Shown: one piece after another, positions 6,367 through 54,245 of the stretch | Layout: every line of letters starts with the position of its first letter | How positions within the stretch are numbered: position 1 is the first letter of the stretch | Source: Draconibacterium sediminis | GTDB lineage: Bacteria > Bacteroidota > Bacteroidia > Bacteroidales > Prolixibacteraceae | Reading direction: 5' to 3' | Length of the DNA stretch: 64,000 nt | Assembly (NCBI RefSeq): GCF_000949475.1 | Contig: NZ_JRHC01000006.1 | Coordinates: forward strand, 248,001-312,000 | The notes under the pieces: generated by a model | Databases searched by the model: none | Told to the model about the DNA's origin: nothing | The model's input: the letters and a program-made list of their open reading frames with translations, nothing else | Program-made: the position numbers and the translations under genes

Positions 6367-6699
6367 TTTTGATTAGTAAATAGAAAAATTCTAACGACTT
6401 ATGATTCTTTGTCGTTATTTAAATAGCTAGCTAAGAATAAGATATAAACATCTTATTAACCGCTAATGTTCATATTGAATAAAAACGGTAACAAACAATA
6501 TTGTAAACAGGTACCACAATACCTTGATTCACCTTTTAAATCTGTAAGAAAATAGATGTATATACTTTCCGAATAGACAACTAATGCCTACAATCCCGAT
6601 CTGATAATTTGATAGTGTTGGGATGGTGATATCGTAATGACTGGTTAAATCATACACCTAAACCCGGTGTCTGCAGTTCGTTGGTGGATTACATAAAAG

Positions 6700-45556: not shown

Positions 45557-45570
45557 AAACACAATTGAAT

Positions 45571-46434
45571 ATGCAAATTGCCATAGCAAGCGGTAAAGGA
45601 GGTACCGGCAAAACAACCGTTTCGGTTAACCTGTACTATTTCTTATCTGAAAAATATAACAACCGCGTACAATTAATCGATTGCGATGTGGAAGAACCAA
45701 ACGACATGCTTTTTTTTCCTCAAGCGAAAAAAGAAGCAGAAAAAGAGGTTTTTATCATCGTTCCTGAAATTGATAAAGAAAGGTGTATCTATTGCAAAAA
45801 ATGCGTTGAATGGTGCGAATTCAATGCAATTAGCATTGTTCAAAGACTAAAATTTGCGGAAGTAAATTACGAACTTTGCCACTCGTGCGGAGCATGTTTT
45901 GAGGCTTGTTCGTTTGAGGCGCTCACACCGGTTCAGAATTCGCTGGGCAGCATTTCCGATTACCGGACAACCTTTGGCGCCGGAATAGTTGAAGGACGGC
46001 TCAAAATTGGTTCCGCCATGCAAACTACATTGATTAAAAGTGTAAAAAAGCTAGCTGATTCAAATCAACATCTTACGTTGCTTGATGCACCTCCCGGCAC
46101 AAGTTGCCCAGTTGTTGAAACCGTTGCAACAGCTAATTACGTCATTCTGGTGACTGAACCCACTCCCTTTGGCTTGCACGATTTAAAAATAACAGTTGAG
46201 TTGCTAAATAAAATTCATAAACCATTTGGCGTAATTGTAAACAAAGCAGGTTTGGGGAACAACACTATTTATCAATTTTTAGAGGAAAACAACATCATGT
46301 TGCTGGGTAAAATACCATTTTCAAAAGTGTATGCGGAGAATTATTCGCGGGGAGAATTATTTGAAAATATACCGGTGGATGTAGAAAAAGCTTATCATTC
46401 TATCCTTGGAAATCTGGCTACCATTATCAACTAA
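45571..46434 (+). CDS. MinD/Mrp-type ATPase with inserted 2[4Fe-4S] ferredoxin domain (first)
   Basis: A 287-residue cytoplasmic ATPase. The deviant Walker A loop SGKGGTGKTTVSVN (8-21) is typical of MinD/Mrp. A ferredoxin insert carries two CxxCxxCxxxC motifs: C72, C75, C78, C82 and C103, C106, C109, C113. The switch text LLDAPPGTSCPVVE follows. Such ATPases assemble or deliver metal-sulfur clusters in ORP systems. ATG 45571 is preferred over the TTG six bases earlier. The second ATPase begins one base after its stop. Confidence 0.93.
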   Translation: MQIAIASGKGGTGKTTVSVNLYYFLSEKYNNRVQLIDCDVEEPNDMLFFPQAKKEAEKEVFIIVPEIDKERCIYCKKCVEWCEFNAISIVQRLKFAEVNYELCHSCGACFEACSFEALTPVQNSLGSISDYRTTFGAGIVEGRLKIGSAMQTTLIKSVKKLADSNQHLTLLDAPPGTSCPVVETVATANYVILVTEPTPFGLHDLKITVELLNKIHKPFGVIVNKAGLGNNTIYQFLEENNIMLLGKIPFSKVYAENYSRGELFENIPVDVEKAYHSILGNLATIIN

Positions 46435-46435
46435 A

Positions 46436-47314
46436 ATGAAGGAAATTACCATACTTAGCGGAAAAGGTGGTGCCGGTAAAACCAGCATTGCTGCTGCCTT
46501 GGCTTCGCTCGCCCGAAACGCTGTATTTTGCGACAACGATGTTGATGCTGCCGATTTGCATTTAATTTTAAAGCCAAAGATAAAAGAAACGCATCCATTC
46601 GATAGCGGTTCGCTGGCATTCATCAATCAGGAAGAGTGTACAAACTGTGGAACCTGCCTGGAAGCATGCCGGTTCGAAGCCATCTTTACCAACAGCGATG
46701 GTTTCCCTGAAATCAATCCCTATCAGTGCGAAGGCTGTCTTTTATGCGAACGACTTTGCCCGGTCGGCACCATTCAAACTACTCAAAACCGGAACAACCA
46801 GTGGTTTATTTCCGACACACGTTTTGGATTGATGGTACACGCAAAAATGGGTCCCGGCGAAGAGAATTCAGGAAAACTGGTAACACGAATACGAGAAAAG
46901 GCAAAAGAACTGGCCAGGGAAAATAAAGCACAATTTATAATAAACGATGGGCCTCCGGGAATTGGCTGCACTGCCATTTCATCTATAACCGGAACAAATG
47001 CCGTTCTGCTGGTGATAGAACCAACTGTTTCAGGATTGCACGATGCCAAACGGCTTGTGGAACTGGTTAATTCTTTTAAAGTATCCATTTATGCCATCAT
47101 TAACAAACACGACATAAACCTTGAATTTACGGCAACTGTTGCGCGCTATTTAATCGACAACAATATTCCGCTTGTTGGAAAAATACCTTTTTCTGAAATG
47201 TTTGTTGAGTGTATGTTAAGCGAAAAATCGTTGGTTGAATATGCGCCGAATCATCCAATAAGTTTAAATTTAAAAACCATTTGGGAAAAGATCAGCAAGA
47301 ATTCGATTCATTAA
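46436..47314 (+). CDS. MinD/Mrp-type ATPase with inserted 2[4Fe-4S] ferredoxin domain (second)
   Basis: A 292-residue paralogue of its neighbour: Walker A LSGKGGAGKTSIAAAL, ferredoxin cysteines C68, C71, C74, C78 and C98, C101, C104, C108, and NDGPPGIGCTAISS. Pairs of such ATPases are the core of orange-protein operons; they may work as a heterodimer. The start ATG 46436 follows one base after the previous stop, and the MBL gene begins two bases after this one ends. These spacings show a single transcript. Confidence 0.93.
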   Translation: MKEITILSGKGGAGKTSIAAALASLARNAVFCDNDVDAADLHLILKPKIKETHPFDSGSLAFINQEECTNCGTCLEACRFEAIFTNSDGFPEINPYQCEGCLLCERLCPVGTIQTTQNRNNQWFISDTRFGLMVHAKMGPGEENSGKLVTRIREKAKELARENKAQFIINDGPPGIGCTAISSITGTNAVLLVIEPTVSGLHDAKRLVELVNSFKVSIYAIINKHDINLEFTATVARYLIDNNIPLVGKIPFSEMFVECMLSEKSLVEYAPNHPISLNLKTIWEKISKNSIH

Positions 47315-49775: not shown

Positions 49776-52064
49776 ATGATTAGATCACTCCTTGTTATTC
49801 CGTTATTTATTTTTGCCGTTTTGCATGGCAATGCTCAGTCGGTTGGGCTTGTGCTTAGTGGTGGTGGCGCCAAAGGAATGGCGCATATTGGGGTGATACG
49901 GGTTCTGGAAGAAAACAACATTCCAATCGACTATATATCAGGAACTTCAATTGGAGCAATTGTTGGTGGACTTTATGCCGCAGGTTATTCTACCGAAGAA
50001 ATGGAAGAACTTTTTAAGTCGGATGATTTTTATTTCTGGTCGACCGGAAAGATACAACGCGAATACCGCTATTATTTTAAACGTCAGGAAGATGACCCCA
50101 CCTGGGTACAACTTCGTGTGGCAAAAAAAGATGAAAAAGTAAAAATTCTGCCACCAACCAATATTATTCCGGGTGAACAAATGGATTTTGCCTTTATGGA
50201 ACTAACGGCTGCAACCAGTGCGGCCTGTAACTATGATTTTAACCAGCTGATGGTACCTTACTTTTGTATTGCCGCCGATGTAAACAATAGTAAACCACTG
50301 GTTTTACGCAATGGAGATTTGGGCAATGCCATGCGGGCATCGATGACGGTTCCACTTTATTTTAAACCTATCGAGATTGACGGGAAATTACTCTTCGACG
50401 GTGGTTTGCTGAATAACTTCCCTACCGACCATATGAAAGAGATTTTTAACCCGGATATTATTATCGGGCATAAGGTGGCTGATGATGTAAGAGCTGCCGA
50501 CGCCGATGATGTTATGCGGCAAATTTCGAACATGGTGATGCGGCCTACTAATTTTGAGATTAAACCATCGGATGGAATTCTTCTGGAAACTAAATTCGAC
50601 AATATTGGTTTGCTCGATTTTCATAAAATAGATACCGTTCTGGCCCGCGGAGAACAAACTACACTGGCCCAAATAGATAGTATAAAACAACTGATTCAAC
50701 GTCGTATTCCAAAAGAAGTGGTTCAGTCAAAACGCGACAGTTTTAATGCACGAAAACCTGAACTCAACTTTCAAAATATTCAGGTTGAAGGTGTTACCGA
50801 CCCCATGCAACGACAGTTCATCATACAAAGTATAAAACACCGGAATAACATTGTCTCGCTTTCTGCATTAAAAACCGAATATTTTAAATTGGTTGCCGAT
50901 GAACAGCTAAAGTCGATCCAACCCATTACGCGCTACAATCCCGGTACGGGTTATTTCGATCTGCATTTAAAAGTAGAACCCGAAAAACGTTTGGATTTGA
51001 GTATTGGTGGAAATATTTCTACCAAGCCGATTAACCAAGGTTTTGCTGCAATAAATTTCAGAAGCTATAACAGCAGAGCCTACTCGCTTCATTCCAACAT
51101 CTATTTTGGGCGGTTTTACAGTTCATTTAAGTTGGGTGGCCGCATTGATTATCCAACGGCGTTGCCCTTCTACCTCGAGTCGTATTTAACTTTTAATCGC
51201 TGGGATTATTTTTCGTCGAGTACAGAGCTGATTTTCGAAGATGTTCGCTCGCCTTTCATTATAAAAGATGAAACCAACTTCAGATTAGAAACCGGATTAC
51301 CGCTGGGCCTGCACAGTAAAATTTATGCGGGTATTGCCTATTCATCGGCAAGTAATGATTTTTATCAAACCGATGAAACGGACGAAGGAGGTACACCCAA
51401 CAATTCAAAATTCAACGCATTCGTTTCGAAGTTGGCATTCGAAAATAACTCACTGAATTACAAGCAGTATGCAACAGAAGGCGCTCATCGTGTAATTGAC
51501 GGTAGATTTGTGATTGGCGAAGAAAAGTACATAGCAGGAAATAATGCAAAGTCTGCAACACAACTTTCAAATCATAATTATTTTCAACTTCATGCCCAAT
51601 CTTTACGCTATTTTTCGTTGGGAGAGAGATTTGTGTTGGGTACCCATCTCGAATCATTTTTAAGTACAAAAAAATTGTTTCAAACATACCGGTCGACAAA
51701 ACTTTCAGCCCAGGGATTTTCGCCAACACCACACAGTAAATCGCTGTTTATAAACGAATTTAATTCGAATAATTTCCTGGCCGGAGGATTAAAAGCCATA
51801 TTCAAATTCTCGCCCGACTGGCATCTTCGTGTTGAAGGTTATGGTTTTTGCCCTATTCATGAAGAGTTGGAACAAGCAGACCTAACGGCAGTTAAAAGCG
51901 ACGATTTTATCAATAATTATTATCTGCAGGGATTGGCTGCATTGGTTTATCAAACCGGAATCGGACCGGTAAGTCTGTCGTTCAACTACTACGAAAAAAG
52001 TAATACCAACCTTTATGTTACGCTGAATTTTGGATATATCTTATTTAACAAACGAGGTTTGTAA
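49776..52064 (+). CDS. Patatin-like phospholipase with POTRA and outer-membrane barrel (PlpD-like)
   Basis: A 762-residue surface lipase. After a signal peptide (LLVIPLFIFAVLHGNA) the patatin domain shows the oxyanion loop LSGGGAKGMAHIGV, the GTSIG nucleophile Ser58 and the catalytic Asp208 in DGGLLNNFP. A POTRA-like linker (~335-400) and a C-terminal barrel of the bacterial surface antigen/Omp85 type follow, ending LYVTLNFGYILFNKRGL. PlpD-type proteins are single-chain type V secretion lipases; the barrel keeps the domain at the cell surface. It is a single gene with its own -7 box. Confidence 0.93.
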   Translation: MIRSLLVIPLFIFAVLHGNAQSVGLVLSGGGAKGMAHIGVIRVLEENNIPIDYISGTSIGAIVGGLYAAGYSTEEMEELFKSDDFYFWSTGKIQREYRYYFKRQEDDPTWVQLRVAKKDEKVKILPPTNIIPGEQMDFAFMELTAATSAACNYDFNQLMVPYFCIAADVNNSKPLVLRNGDLGNAMRASMTVPLYFKPIEIDGKLLFDGGLLNNFPTDHMKEIFNPDIIIGHKVADDVRAADADDVMRQISNMVMRPTNFEIKPSDGILLETKFDNIGLLDFHKIDTVLARGEQTTLAQIDSIKQLIQRRIPKEVVQSKRDSFNARKPELNFQNIQVEGVTDPMQRQFIIQSIKHRNNIVSLSALKTEYFKLVADEQLKSIQPITRYNPGTGYFDLHLKVEPEKRLDLSIGGNISTKPINQGFAAINFRSYNSRAYSLHSNIYFGRFYSSFKLGGRIDYPTALPFYLESYLTFNRWDYFSSSTELIFEDVRSPFIIKDETNFRLETGLPLGLHSKIYAGIAYSSASNDFYQTDETDEGGTPNNSKFNAFVSKLAFENNSLNYKQYATEGAHRVIDGRFVIGEEKYIAGNNAKSATQLSNHNYFQLHAQSLRYFSLGERFVLGTHLESFLSTKKLFQTYRSTKLSAQGFSPTPHSKSLFINEFNSNNFLAGGLKAIFKFSPDWHLRVEGYGFCPIHEELEQADLTAVKSDDFINNYYLQGLAALVYQTGIGPVSLSFNYYEKSNTNLYVTLNFGYILFNKRGL

Positions 52065-52078
52065 AACAAGTAGCCAAA

Positions 52079-52431
52079 TTAACTACGAATATGATTTTCG
52101 ATCGCTGAAGGAAGTTCAAACGACAGTTCCACTACCCCGCAGAATTTCCCGTTTTCCATCCATGGTTTTTGGGTAACTACCTTTGTTACACCGTCCTTTT
52201 CTGTGTATAGGTATTCTCGGTTGGTGTTGCCAGCATTTCACGAAGTTTGGTTTTCGATGGCTCGGGATGACAATCCAGAAGGTTTGTACCCAACAATTTT
52301 TCGCCACCATACTTTTCAAACTGCCGAATGGAAAAATCATTCATATAAACAATAATACCCTCTGTATTGCAAACAGTAATGGCTCCACCAAATGCGTCCA
52401 TCCAGTTTACGTCGCTACCTTTCAATATCAT
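52079..52431 (-). pseudogene. Small PAS-domain protein, frameshifted
   Basis: Two frames on the minus strand form one PAS protein of about 117 residues. The first (52431-52198) reads MDAFGGAITVCNTEGIIVYM and ends abruptly after NTYTQK. Past an A4 run (52197-52200) the other frame continues DGVTKVVTQKPWMENGKFCG, then VVELSFELPSAIENHI and a stop at 52079. One extra A restores the whole fold, including the VELS.E.P ending of this family. Its ATG overlaps the upstream gene's stop (ATGA). It is either a recent mutation or a one-base sequencing error. Confidence 0.8.
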
Positions 52432-54245
52432 TTTTTACGACAGCATTTCACCCATTCAACATCGAAACTGGCTGATGATCCGGGTAATTTATCAATTACA
52501 AGACTTGAAGCATTTAACTCCAAAGGTTTATTTAAATCGTTGTTGTTCAGCTGTAAAACTTCCTGTTCATTAATTTTCCAGGTGAAAGTTGCTCCCGATT
52601 TTTCGAGCGAGAAGATATAAGCTCCCTTTTTCAGGTTATTAATTTCCAATCCTTCTGAAGCTATTTTTCCGCTTCCGTTCATGGTGTAAATTCCCAGAAT
52701 ATTTTTTGCGCCCATTTCAACCAGGTTAACACGCGGAACGTTGCTGCCATTGGCCAGGTAAAATGAACTGGCCACCTGTTTTACGGGATTAAAGAAAATT
52801 TTTGCTTCAACAATTCCATCCCCGAACTGGAAATTCTCGCCCGAACTGATCATTCCCGACGTATAGTCGAAATCAGCAGGAACAAAACCGGCTGGCATTT
52901 GCCAAACCATGCCTTCTTTGTTTTCACGTTTAACCTGAATACTTAGTTTATTACCGGTTTGTATGTTGGCACCGTTAGTGAAAACACTTAAGTCGCCCGG
53001 CATTGCATAGTTTTGCCCCAATGTTTTTGAAGCGGTTAACGAACTGGTCATCCATTTCGCGTCATCCAGTTTTTTATCGGCAAACGAATCCTCAAAAACT
53101 ACATCCCAGTTTTTGAAAAAGTCAAATTCACTGCTGTCTTTGTATTTAAAGTATTTTACAAATTCCGGTTTCTTCTTATCGGTTTCGTATTGGTTCAACT
53201 TCTGCGCATCTTCTGTTTTATCCCAGCGTTTTTTGTCTTCCAACCACGCTTTTTTCTTTTTGTAACCTTCTGATTCAATCAACTCTTTAAGTTCATTATG
53301 TCGCTTTAAATCAAACGATTCTTTAACATCAAGGTAGTTTTTGTAAAGTTTCGATTTTTCGTATTTCAATACAAAAGTCACTACAGGATCAGCCGCCAGT
53401 TTTTTATAATCCGTGTATTTTTTGTAGGCTTCGCTTTTTTCAAATTTCTTCTTGTCTTTTAAATAAGCAACCTTCTTTTTAAATTCTTCGGTGTTTACCT
53501 GCTCTTTTAATTCTTTGTAGCGAACCAGGTTATGACTTCCGCTGATTTCGTGATACAACTTCAGGTTTTTCGATTTCTCGAACTTGAAATAGTTTACAAC
53601 TGCCGAATCCTTGCTCAAACGATTAAACTCCTTCTTCTTTTCGCTATCGTTTACAGCTGCCGTTTTTAACTCCTTATATTGCTTCATTTTATCTGAAGCT
53701 TCAAATGCCTTGTGTTGTTTCAGTTTTTCCGAACCTTCCAGCTCATTATACGCTTTAATTCCGGCCGATTTTTCAAGCTTCTTTAATTCCTTTAAATGCT
53801 TCTCTTCAGCCGAACCTTTAAAAACCTGTCCTTTAATTTCCTTTTTATCTTTTTCAAAATCGCCGTCTTTCACGTATTCTTCAAGCGCATAAAAATCTGC
53901 CAGTTTCTGCGATTCTTTTTCTTTCTCATACCGAACCAGGTCTGCAGAACCTTCAACTTTAAAATAGTTCTTTATACGTGCAGCCTTTTGCAAACGCTGA
54001 AATTCCTTTAATTGCTTTTCCTCTTCGCTTCCTTTAAAACTATGTCCTTCAACCTCCTTCTTCCTTGCAGCAAATTCACTGGAAGTAACATATTTTTCCA
54101 ACTCTAAAAATGCTTTCAGCTCTTCTGAATTTTGCGTTTTTAAAAATTCAGCGTAATCGTCGGCTAATTGTTTGCGCTTTTTCTCGATTACCTCAACCGA
54201 CTTGATCTTACCTGTAAGTTGAAGTGAAAAAATTTTAAATGACAT
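52428..54245 (-). CDS. Lys/Glu repeat protein with C-terminal concanavalin-like domain
   Basis: A 605-residue protein I do not recognise as a named family. There is no signal peptide or membrane helix. Residues ~40-378 are charged helical repeats. Two long units match each other at a 73-residue offset (LEKYVTSSEFAARKKEVEGH at 49-68, LEEYVKDGDFEKDKKEIKGQ at 121-140, each followed by FKGS). A second pair is YKELKEQVNTEEFKKKVAYL and HNELKELIESEGYKKKKAWL. Residues ~380-601 look like a GH16-type concanavalin sandwich (VFEDSFADKKLDDAKWMTSS; FGDGIVEAKIFF), but the ExDxxE site is degenerate (RVNLVEM). The PAS gene is coupled to it. Confidence 0.8.
   Translation of the reverse strand: MSFKIFSLQLTGKIKSVEVIEKKRKQLADDYAEFLKTQNSEELKAFLELEKYVTSSEFAARKKEVEGHSFKGSEEEKQLKEFQRLQKAARIKNYFKVEGSADLVRYEKEKESQKLADFYALEEYVKDGDFEKDKKEIKGQVFKGSAEEKHLKELKKLEKSAGIKAYNELEGSEKLKQHKAFEASDKMKQYKELKTAAVNDSEKKKEFNRLSKDSAVVNYFKFEKSKNLKLYHEISGSHNLVRYKELKEQVNTEEFKKKVAYLKDKKKFEKSEAYKKYTDYKKLAADPVVTFVLKYEKSKLYKNYLDVKESFDLKRHNELKELIESEGYKKKKAWLEDKKRWDKTEDAQKLNQYETDKKKPEFVKYFKYKDSSEFDFFKNWDVVFEDSFADKKLDDAKWMTSSLTASKTLGQNYAMPGDLSVFTNGANIQTGNKLSIQVKRENKEGMVWQMPAGFVPADFDYTSGMISSGENFQFGDGIVEAKIFFNPVKQVASSFYLANGSNVPRVNLVEMGAKNILGIYTMNGSGKIASEGLEINNLKKGAYIFSLEKSGATFTWKINEQEVLQLNNNDLNKPLELNASSLVIDKLPGSSASFDVEWVKCCRKK

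Follow-up and report, generated by a model that had tools for sequence, protein, structure and literature searches.

Enzymes of glycoside hydrolase family 16 (GH16) usually carry a secretion signal and, to our knowledge and as an impression only, catalytically dead GH16 folds have rarely been considered inside bacterial cells. A precedent for an inactive protein with this fold is Rv0315 of Mycobacterium tuberculosis (PDB 4wzf; PMC4606783). Here we analyze a minus-strand gene of Draconibacterium sediminis, contained in a 64,000-nt stretch of contig NZ_JRHC01000006.1 (positions 248,001 to 312,000; hereafter "the window"). Its 605-residue product, referred to below as the scaffold protein, joins a run of helical repeats to a GH16-fold domain and is followed by the gene for a small PAS protein. 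It has the jelly roll in common with the GH16 laminarinases and beta-1,3-glucanases (PDB 4dfs, 3azx, 6jhj, 4crq) and differs from them in lacking the catalytic ExDxxE motif throughout its family, in carrying repeats in front of the domain and in having no evident secretion signal. As for Rv0315, we know of neither repeats nor a PAS neighbor in that case.

Beyond GH16 and PAS, we found no family for the repeats or for the architecture in Pfam, NCBIfam, PADLOC, PHROGs or the PDB sequences. The three proteins searched gave no match to anti-phage defense or phage proteins at E ≤0.01 in either PADLOC or PHROGs, and a defense or phage origin was set aside. The PAS profile matched no PDB chain at E 0.01, and the only named NCBIfam relative of the three PAS proteins scanned was the sigma-54 regulator PrdR (NF041552), whose best match (E 1.8e-5, profile positions 140-228) is confined to the PAS part and scores 23 bits against an equivalog cut-off of 795. 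A full-text search of PubMed Central (PMC), a collection that leaves most subscription journals outside its scope, returned no description of a repeat-GH16-PAS system. The family of dead-GH16 repeat proteins is apparently undescribed. The GH16 fold and the PAS protein belong to known kinds; what would be new is a GH16-fold family that has no catalytic motif and carries new repeats.

The GH16-fold domain lacks the catalytic motif

Residues 379-605 form a jelly roll, with profile and structure matches to GH16 over nearly the whole domain. The initial annotation had recognized a GH16-like sandwich with a lost ExDxxE site, and the family bears this out: neither ExDxxE nor ExDxE is present in any of 98 members (one has a gap at the site), while all 24 control GH16 proteins have the motif. 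A similar string in one member (L091, residue 247) lies outside the aligned catalytic site. Seven positions of the fold (W398, N427, W448, G453, W556, N559 and W598) are invariant in 48 of 48 aligned members. Because the motif is lost, an active GH16 enzyme seems unlikely. The set of 98 is what remained after removal of rows with identical last 200 residues; it includes pieces of frameshifted genes (L005, L033) and a protein cut at a contig end (L020). Frameshifts in the scaffold gene were seen in two single-contig genomes, Draconibacterium orientale FH5T (L005, at about 6482-6485) and G037 (L087). In G037 the neighboring phosphorylase gene is likewise split, which suggests sequencing errors in that genome.

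A simple scan, as distinct from a signal-peptide predictor, found no lipobox in any of the 98 members, and in 97 of them no 19-residue stretch exceeded a hydrophobicity of 1.6, in agreement with the earlier observation that the protein has no signal peptide. A cytoplasmic location thus appears likely.

A five-helix repeat of variable copy number

AlphaFold2 models of the whole protein (mean predicted local distance difference test score, pLDDT, 89.9; predicted template modeling score, pTM, 0.57) and of residues 1-380 alone (pLDDT 90.4, pTM 0.61) agree with the division foreseen by the initial annotation: residues 1-379 are helical and residues 380-605 chiefly beta strands. At the N-terminus the model places helices at residues 3-10 and 17-38. 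The following stretch of about 340 residues (41-378) had been described as two types of repeat, each duplicated. The repeats themselves stand; the two types were dropped since self-alignment of the N-terminal part, together with a hidden Markov model (HMM) of the unit, gives a single unit of about 72 residues and five helices, present in five copies. The five-copy unit HMM matches 47 of 48 relatives and none of 240 shuffled N-terminal parts. By the same HMM, 38 of the 48 relatives have either five or three copies, and copies detected over the 98 proteins range from 0 to 9. In two minimal members of 328 and 333 residues (L186:1302-2286, and L187, minus strand, frame stretch 1425-2424 in reverse-complement coordinates) the N-terminal motif is followed almost at once by the GH16-fold domain. 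As both ends are constant and the repeats vary in number, the latter look like a spacer of adjustable length.

At E ≤0.1 the 48 members together match 22 Pfam families, none of them a TPR, HEAT, Sel1 or similar repeat. Searching the repeats against PDB and viral structure libraries gave nothing above noise, which is no proof of a new fold.

The scaffold protein is conserved in Prolixibacteraceae

Within the window's family, the Prolixibacteraceae (including Draconibacterium, Maribellus, Mariniphaga and Tangfeifania), 123 of 140 genomes have a scaffold match, among them 96 of the 103 of good quality. In a sample of the order Bacteroidales, 99 of 295 genomes match at E 1e-6 and 76 (tallied by hand) at 1e-45 or better; among the matches listed, the weaker ones cover the GH16 part only. 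A phylum-wide sample of 296 genomes returned the window's own genome and 24 others, the latter again in the GH16 part only among the matches listed. The catalytic motif is intact in all 24 proteins taken from the wider-phylum loci. For both reasons these matches look like ordinary GH16 enzymes and were set aside as homologues. The sampling thus suggests that the repeat protein is confined to the order.

Substitution rates were computed for 9 of 28 within-genus pairs. Nonsynonymous rates (dN) are 0.03-0.26 for both the scaffold and the PAS genes, and synonymous rates (dS), where computable, 0.27 to 3.1. With dN low relative to dS, intact copies of both genes seem to be under purifying selection.

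The PAS gene is linked to the scaffold gene and optional

The PAS profile detects a gene in 70 of the 140 family genomes (56 of the 103 good-quality genomes; 10 of 23 genera). In 69 of the 70 it lies directly downstream of the scaffold gene on the same contig and strand, at a distance between match edges of -1 to 350 nt (66 within 150 nt), and in the remaining one (G007) the contig opens with the scaffold's last residues. No unlinked copy was found in the 140 genomes at E 1e-10. Linkage in every PAS-bearing genome (70/70) is, on these gene positions, beyond what chance would give. The scaffold stop codon TGA overlaps the PAS start codon (ATGA) in the window, as initially annotated from the open reading frames (ORFs). 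This four-base overlap recurs in 20 of 40 distinct genomes (counted by hand); 19 others have the genes spaced 1 to 98 nt apart, and in D. orientale the scaffold frameshift obscures the spacing.

A nucleoside phosphorylase gene on the other flank served as a control neighbor, the comparison being made by hand. Within the window's genus it is found some 250 nt from the scaffold in every PAS-bearing genome (24 of 24). In the other genera, 42 PAS-bearing genomes have a phosphorylase match, and there it lies over 11 kb from the scaffold or on a different contig. A different contig indicates distance only for scaffolds that do not border on a contig edge, as those of at least G007 and G081 do; four further genomes without a phosphorylase match (G011, G018, G019, G078) are not among the 42. 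The gene is absent from all 17 PAS-bearing loci outside the genus with upstream flank read, and some genera lacking PAS have it beside the scaffold (e.g. G107, G132). The PAS gene has therefore been kept where this other neighbor was not.

The reverse does not hold. A PAS match accompanies 69 of the 123 scaffold-matching family genomes and is missing from 54; some of these 54 are incomplete genomes, or their scaffold gene runs up to the end of a contig. Outside the family, none of 25 scaffold loci of the order has a PAS gene next door; a further locus (L118) ends at a contig end and, like L020 and L051, has too little downstream sequence for a call. Mapped on a tree of 95 scaffold proteins, PAS presence changes at least 15 times (L005, L033 and L020 being left out and the window's own copy, broken as described below, being counted as present). 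Such a count is blind to gain versus loss; scattered losses are the simpler reading. We therefore rejected an obligate scaffold-PAS pair. Given the frequencies inside and outside the family, PAS is best described, on comparative grounds, as an optional, lineage-specific accessory. The adjacency that the initial annotation proposed to check is constant from the side of the PAS gene in this family and inconstant from the side of the scaffold: slightly over half of the scaffold homologues in the family have the neighbor, and none of the 25 loci outside it.

Unlinked PAS relatives and a broken copy in the window

We know of no role for the small PAS family in Bacteroidales. In a sample of 198 genomes from the order, 51 contain it (two of them from the window's family), with one match per genome. 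At 29 free PAS loci outside the family (L121-L149) there is no scaffold homologue within about 1.5 kb, and the neighbors vary. His55, Tyr75, Lys79, Gln88, Gly99 and Glu102 are conserved in all 24 linked and all 29 free members, and Cys54 in 24 and 28 of them, respectively. Since linked and free proteins have these residues in common, the PAS protein probably has an older role of its own and later came to adjoin the scaffold. It may perhaps have done so once: a tree with all linked copies in one clade was not rejected (approximately unbiased test, p-AU 0.733), although the free tree needed 2 changes.

In the window, the PAS ORF ends after 81 codons, and straight read-through meets stops. Draconibacterium mangrovi, whose scaffold is 97% identical to the window's (the closest among named records), has an intact PAS gene of 117 residues. 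The two PAS sequences differ by one single-base gap in 354 columns, and no gap interrupts the alignment of the scaffold gene or of three flanking genes. With the 3' part in another frame, the window's PAS gene is, by this alignment, disrupted as assembled, through either mutation or assembly error. The initial annotation, which noted the start of this PAS gene at the scaffold stop, overlooked the frameshift. Close relatives examined keep the gene intact, unlike the window at 52085-52431. The window's own PAS part scores 20.2 bits against PAS_4 (cut-off 23.1 bits), a threshold passed by two of five relatives scanned (L083, 34.4; L080, 25.1) and missed by three. A second broken copy may be present in G046 (L009 / L041), where PAS follows the scaffold without an in-frame N-terminal part.

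Features of the locus and its surroundings

Table 1. Position of the features in the window (position 1 is its first nucleotide).
Feature	Position	Strand	Basis
Scaffold protein gene, 605 aa (N-terminal motif, helical repeats, GH16-fold domain)	52428..54245	-	ORF
Conserved N-terminus, residues 1-40, begins MSFKIFSLQLTGKIK	54126..54245	-	Alignment, AlphaFold2 model, minimal members L186 and L187
Repeat 1, residues 41-112, five helices	53910..54125	-	Unit HMM, DSSP of models
Repeat 2, residues 113-184	53694..53909	-	Unit HMM, DSSP of models
Repeat 3, residues 185-237, shortened, without second helix	53535..53693	-	Unit HMM, DSSP of models
Repeat 4, residues 238-310	53316..53534	-	Unit HMM, DSSP of models
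Repeat 5, residues 311-378	53112..53315	-	Unit HMM, DSSP of models
GH16-fold domain, residues 379-605, catalytic motif absent	52431..53111	-	
RVNLVE, residues 505-510, at the position of ExDxxE in GH16 enzymes	52716..52733	-	Sequence comparison
Small PAS gene, in-frame part, 81 codons, frameshifted	52186..52431	-	ORF, PAS profile
PAS gene 3' remainder, other frame, profile positions 72-114	about 52085..52213	-	Second PAS profile match, converted to window coordinates

A Bacteroidetes-type promoter pattern matches 5 times in the window against 4.0 expected, no excess over chance, and none of the matches is at the scaffold locus. Convergent to the PAS gene is a gene for a patatin-like protein with, by eye, a barrel-like C-terminus (49776-52064). 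In 35 of the 66 loci compared, a homologue of it is found close to the scaffold; several genomes entered this comparison twice, and the flanks were of unequal length. Further away, positions 45565-47314 hold two adjoining, related MinD-type ATPases, each with ferredoxin-like cysteine clusters, followed by a metallo-beta-lactamase-fold-like protein (all named by eye).

Discussion

Our preferred reading, held tentatively and a little short of probable, is that the scaffold is a cytoplasmic, non-catalytic recognition protein, with a GH16-fold head on a variable number of repeats and a PAS accessory in the Prolixibacteraceae. The jelly roll, lacking the residues for cutting, would serve as a head that binds either a glycan or a protein. 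It would sit at the end of the 72-residue five-helix repeats, which, differing in number between lineages, could act as an adjustable rod, and the conserved N-terminal segment would be the other constant end, possibly a docking end. In the Prolixibacteraceae the PAS gene directly behind is probably cotranscribed with the scaffold gene; its product may bind the scaffold and tune it to a metabolic or redox signal, as a dispensable, optional regulatory subunit. Of what the initial annotation proposed, the anatomy stands and the coupling to PAS stands in part; a sensing or scaffolding function is conjectural.

Several points weigh against our reading. Binding to a sugar, to PAS or to any other partner is purely putative. 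PAS is missing from the 54 family genomes mentioned above, and the phosphorylase control loses force for scaffolds situated at a contig edge. Two genes can also stay neighbors throughout one family because they are cotranscribed, even if their products never touch, and the solitary PAS genes of other Bacteroidales, with their varied neighbors, imply a PAS role that exists without the scaffold. Finally, the lysine-rich repeats might equally bind polyanions. In the form we considered, which we regard as quite improbable, the repeats would bind nucleic acid or another polyanion (polyphosphate, membrane lipid heads), with the GH16-fold domain as an accessory. The composition of residues 1-378 (22% lysine, pI 9.3) and a median pI of 9.1 over 48 members speak for it; yet glutamate also makes up 14% of this segment, the pI of whole proteins goes down to 5.7, and no nucleic-acid-binding family was found for the repeats common to most members.

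A somewhat unlikely alternative, though one with a real chance, is a structural element of the cell interior, in which the repeats form a rod or polymer, the GH16 fold caps or assembles it and the PAS gene is merely positional. Seven invariant positions in the GH16 fold may mean more than capping, however, and the PAS-bearing genomes retain the pair despite changed neighborhoods. The complete linkage among PAS-bearing genomes of the family would suit a genuine signal module with PAS as sensor and scaffold as effector, PAS being lost only where another input substitutes; so would the near-strict conservation of Cys54 and His55 even in unlinked PAS relatives and the non-rejection of a single clade of linked copies. 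The repeated changes in PAS presence on the scaffold tree and the broken copy in the window nevertheless make an obligate sensor unlikely, and we consider this explanation distinctly doubtful. An elaboration of the recognition protein that we likewise think improbable is a Bacteroidales-specific intracellular lectin-like system, made up of an anchor, a rod of new five-helix repeats that is adjustable in length, a dead GH16 head reading a cytoplasmic glycan or glycolipid precursor and, in the Prolixibacteraceae, a cotranslated PAS protein for tuning.

Conservation of the scaffold protein in nearly all good-quality genomes of one family, with no assigned role found, marks a clear gap. The repeat would be a new building block for a rod of variable length. 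If the head does bind a cytoplasmic glycan, the protein would represent a new way for Bacteroidales to organize the precursors of envelope or storage polysaccharides.
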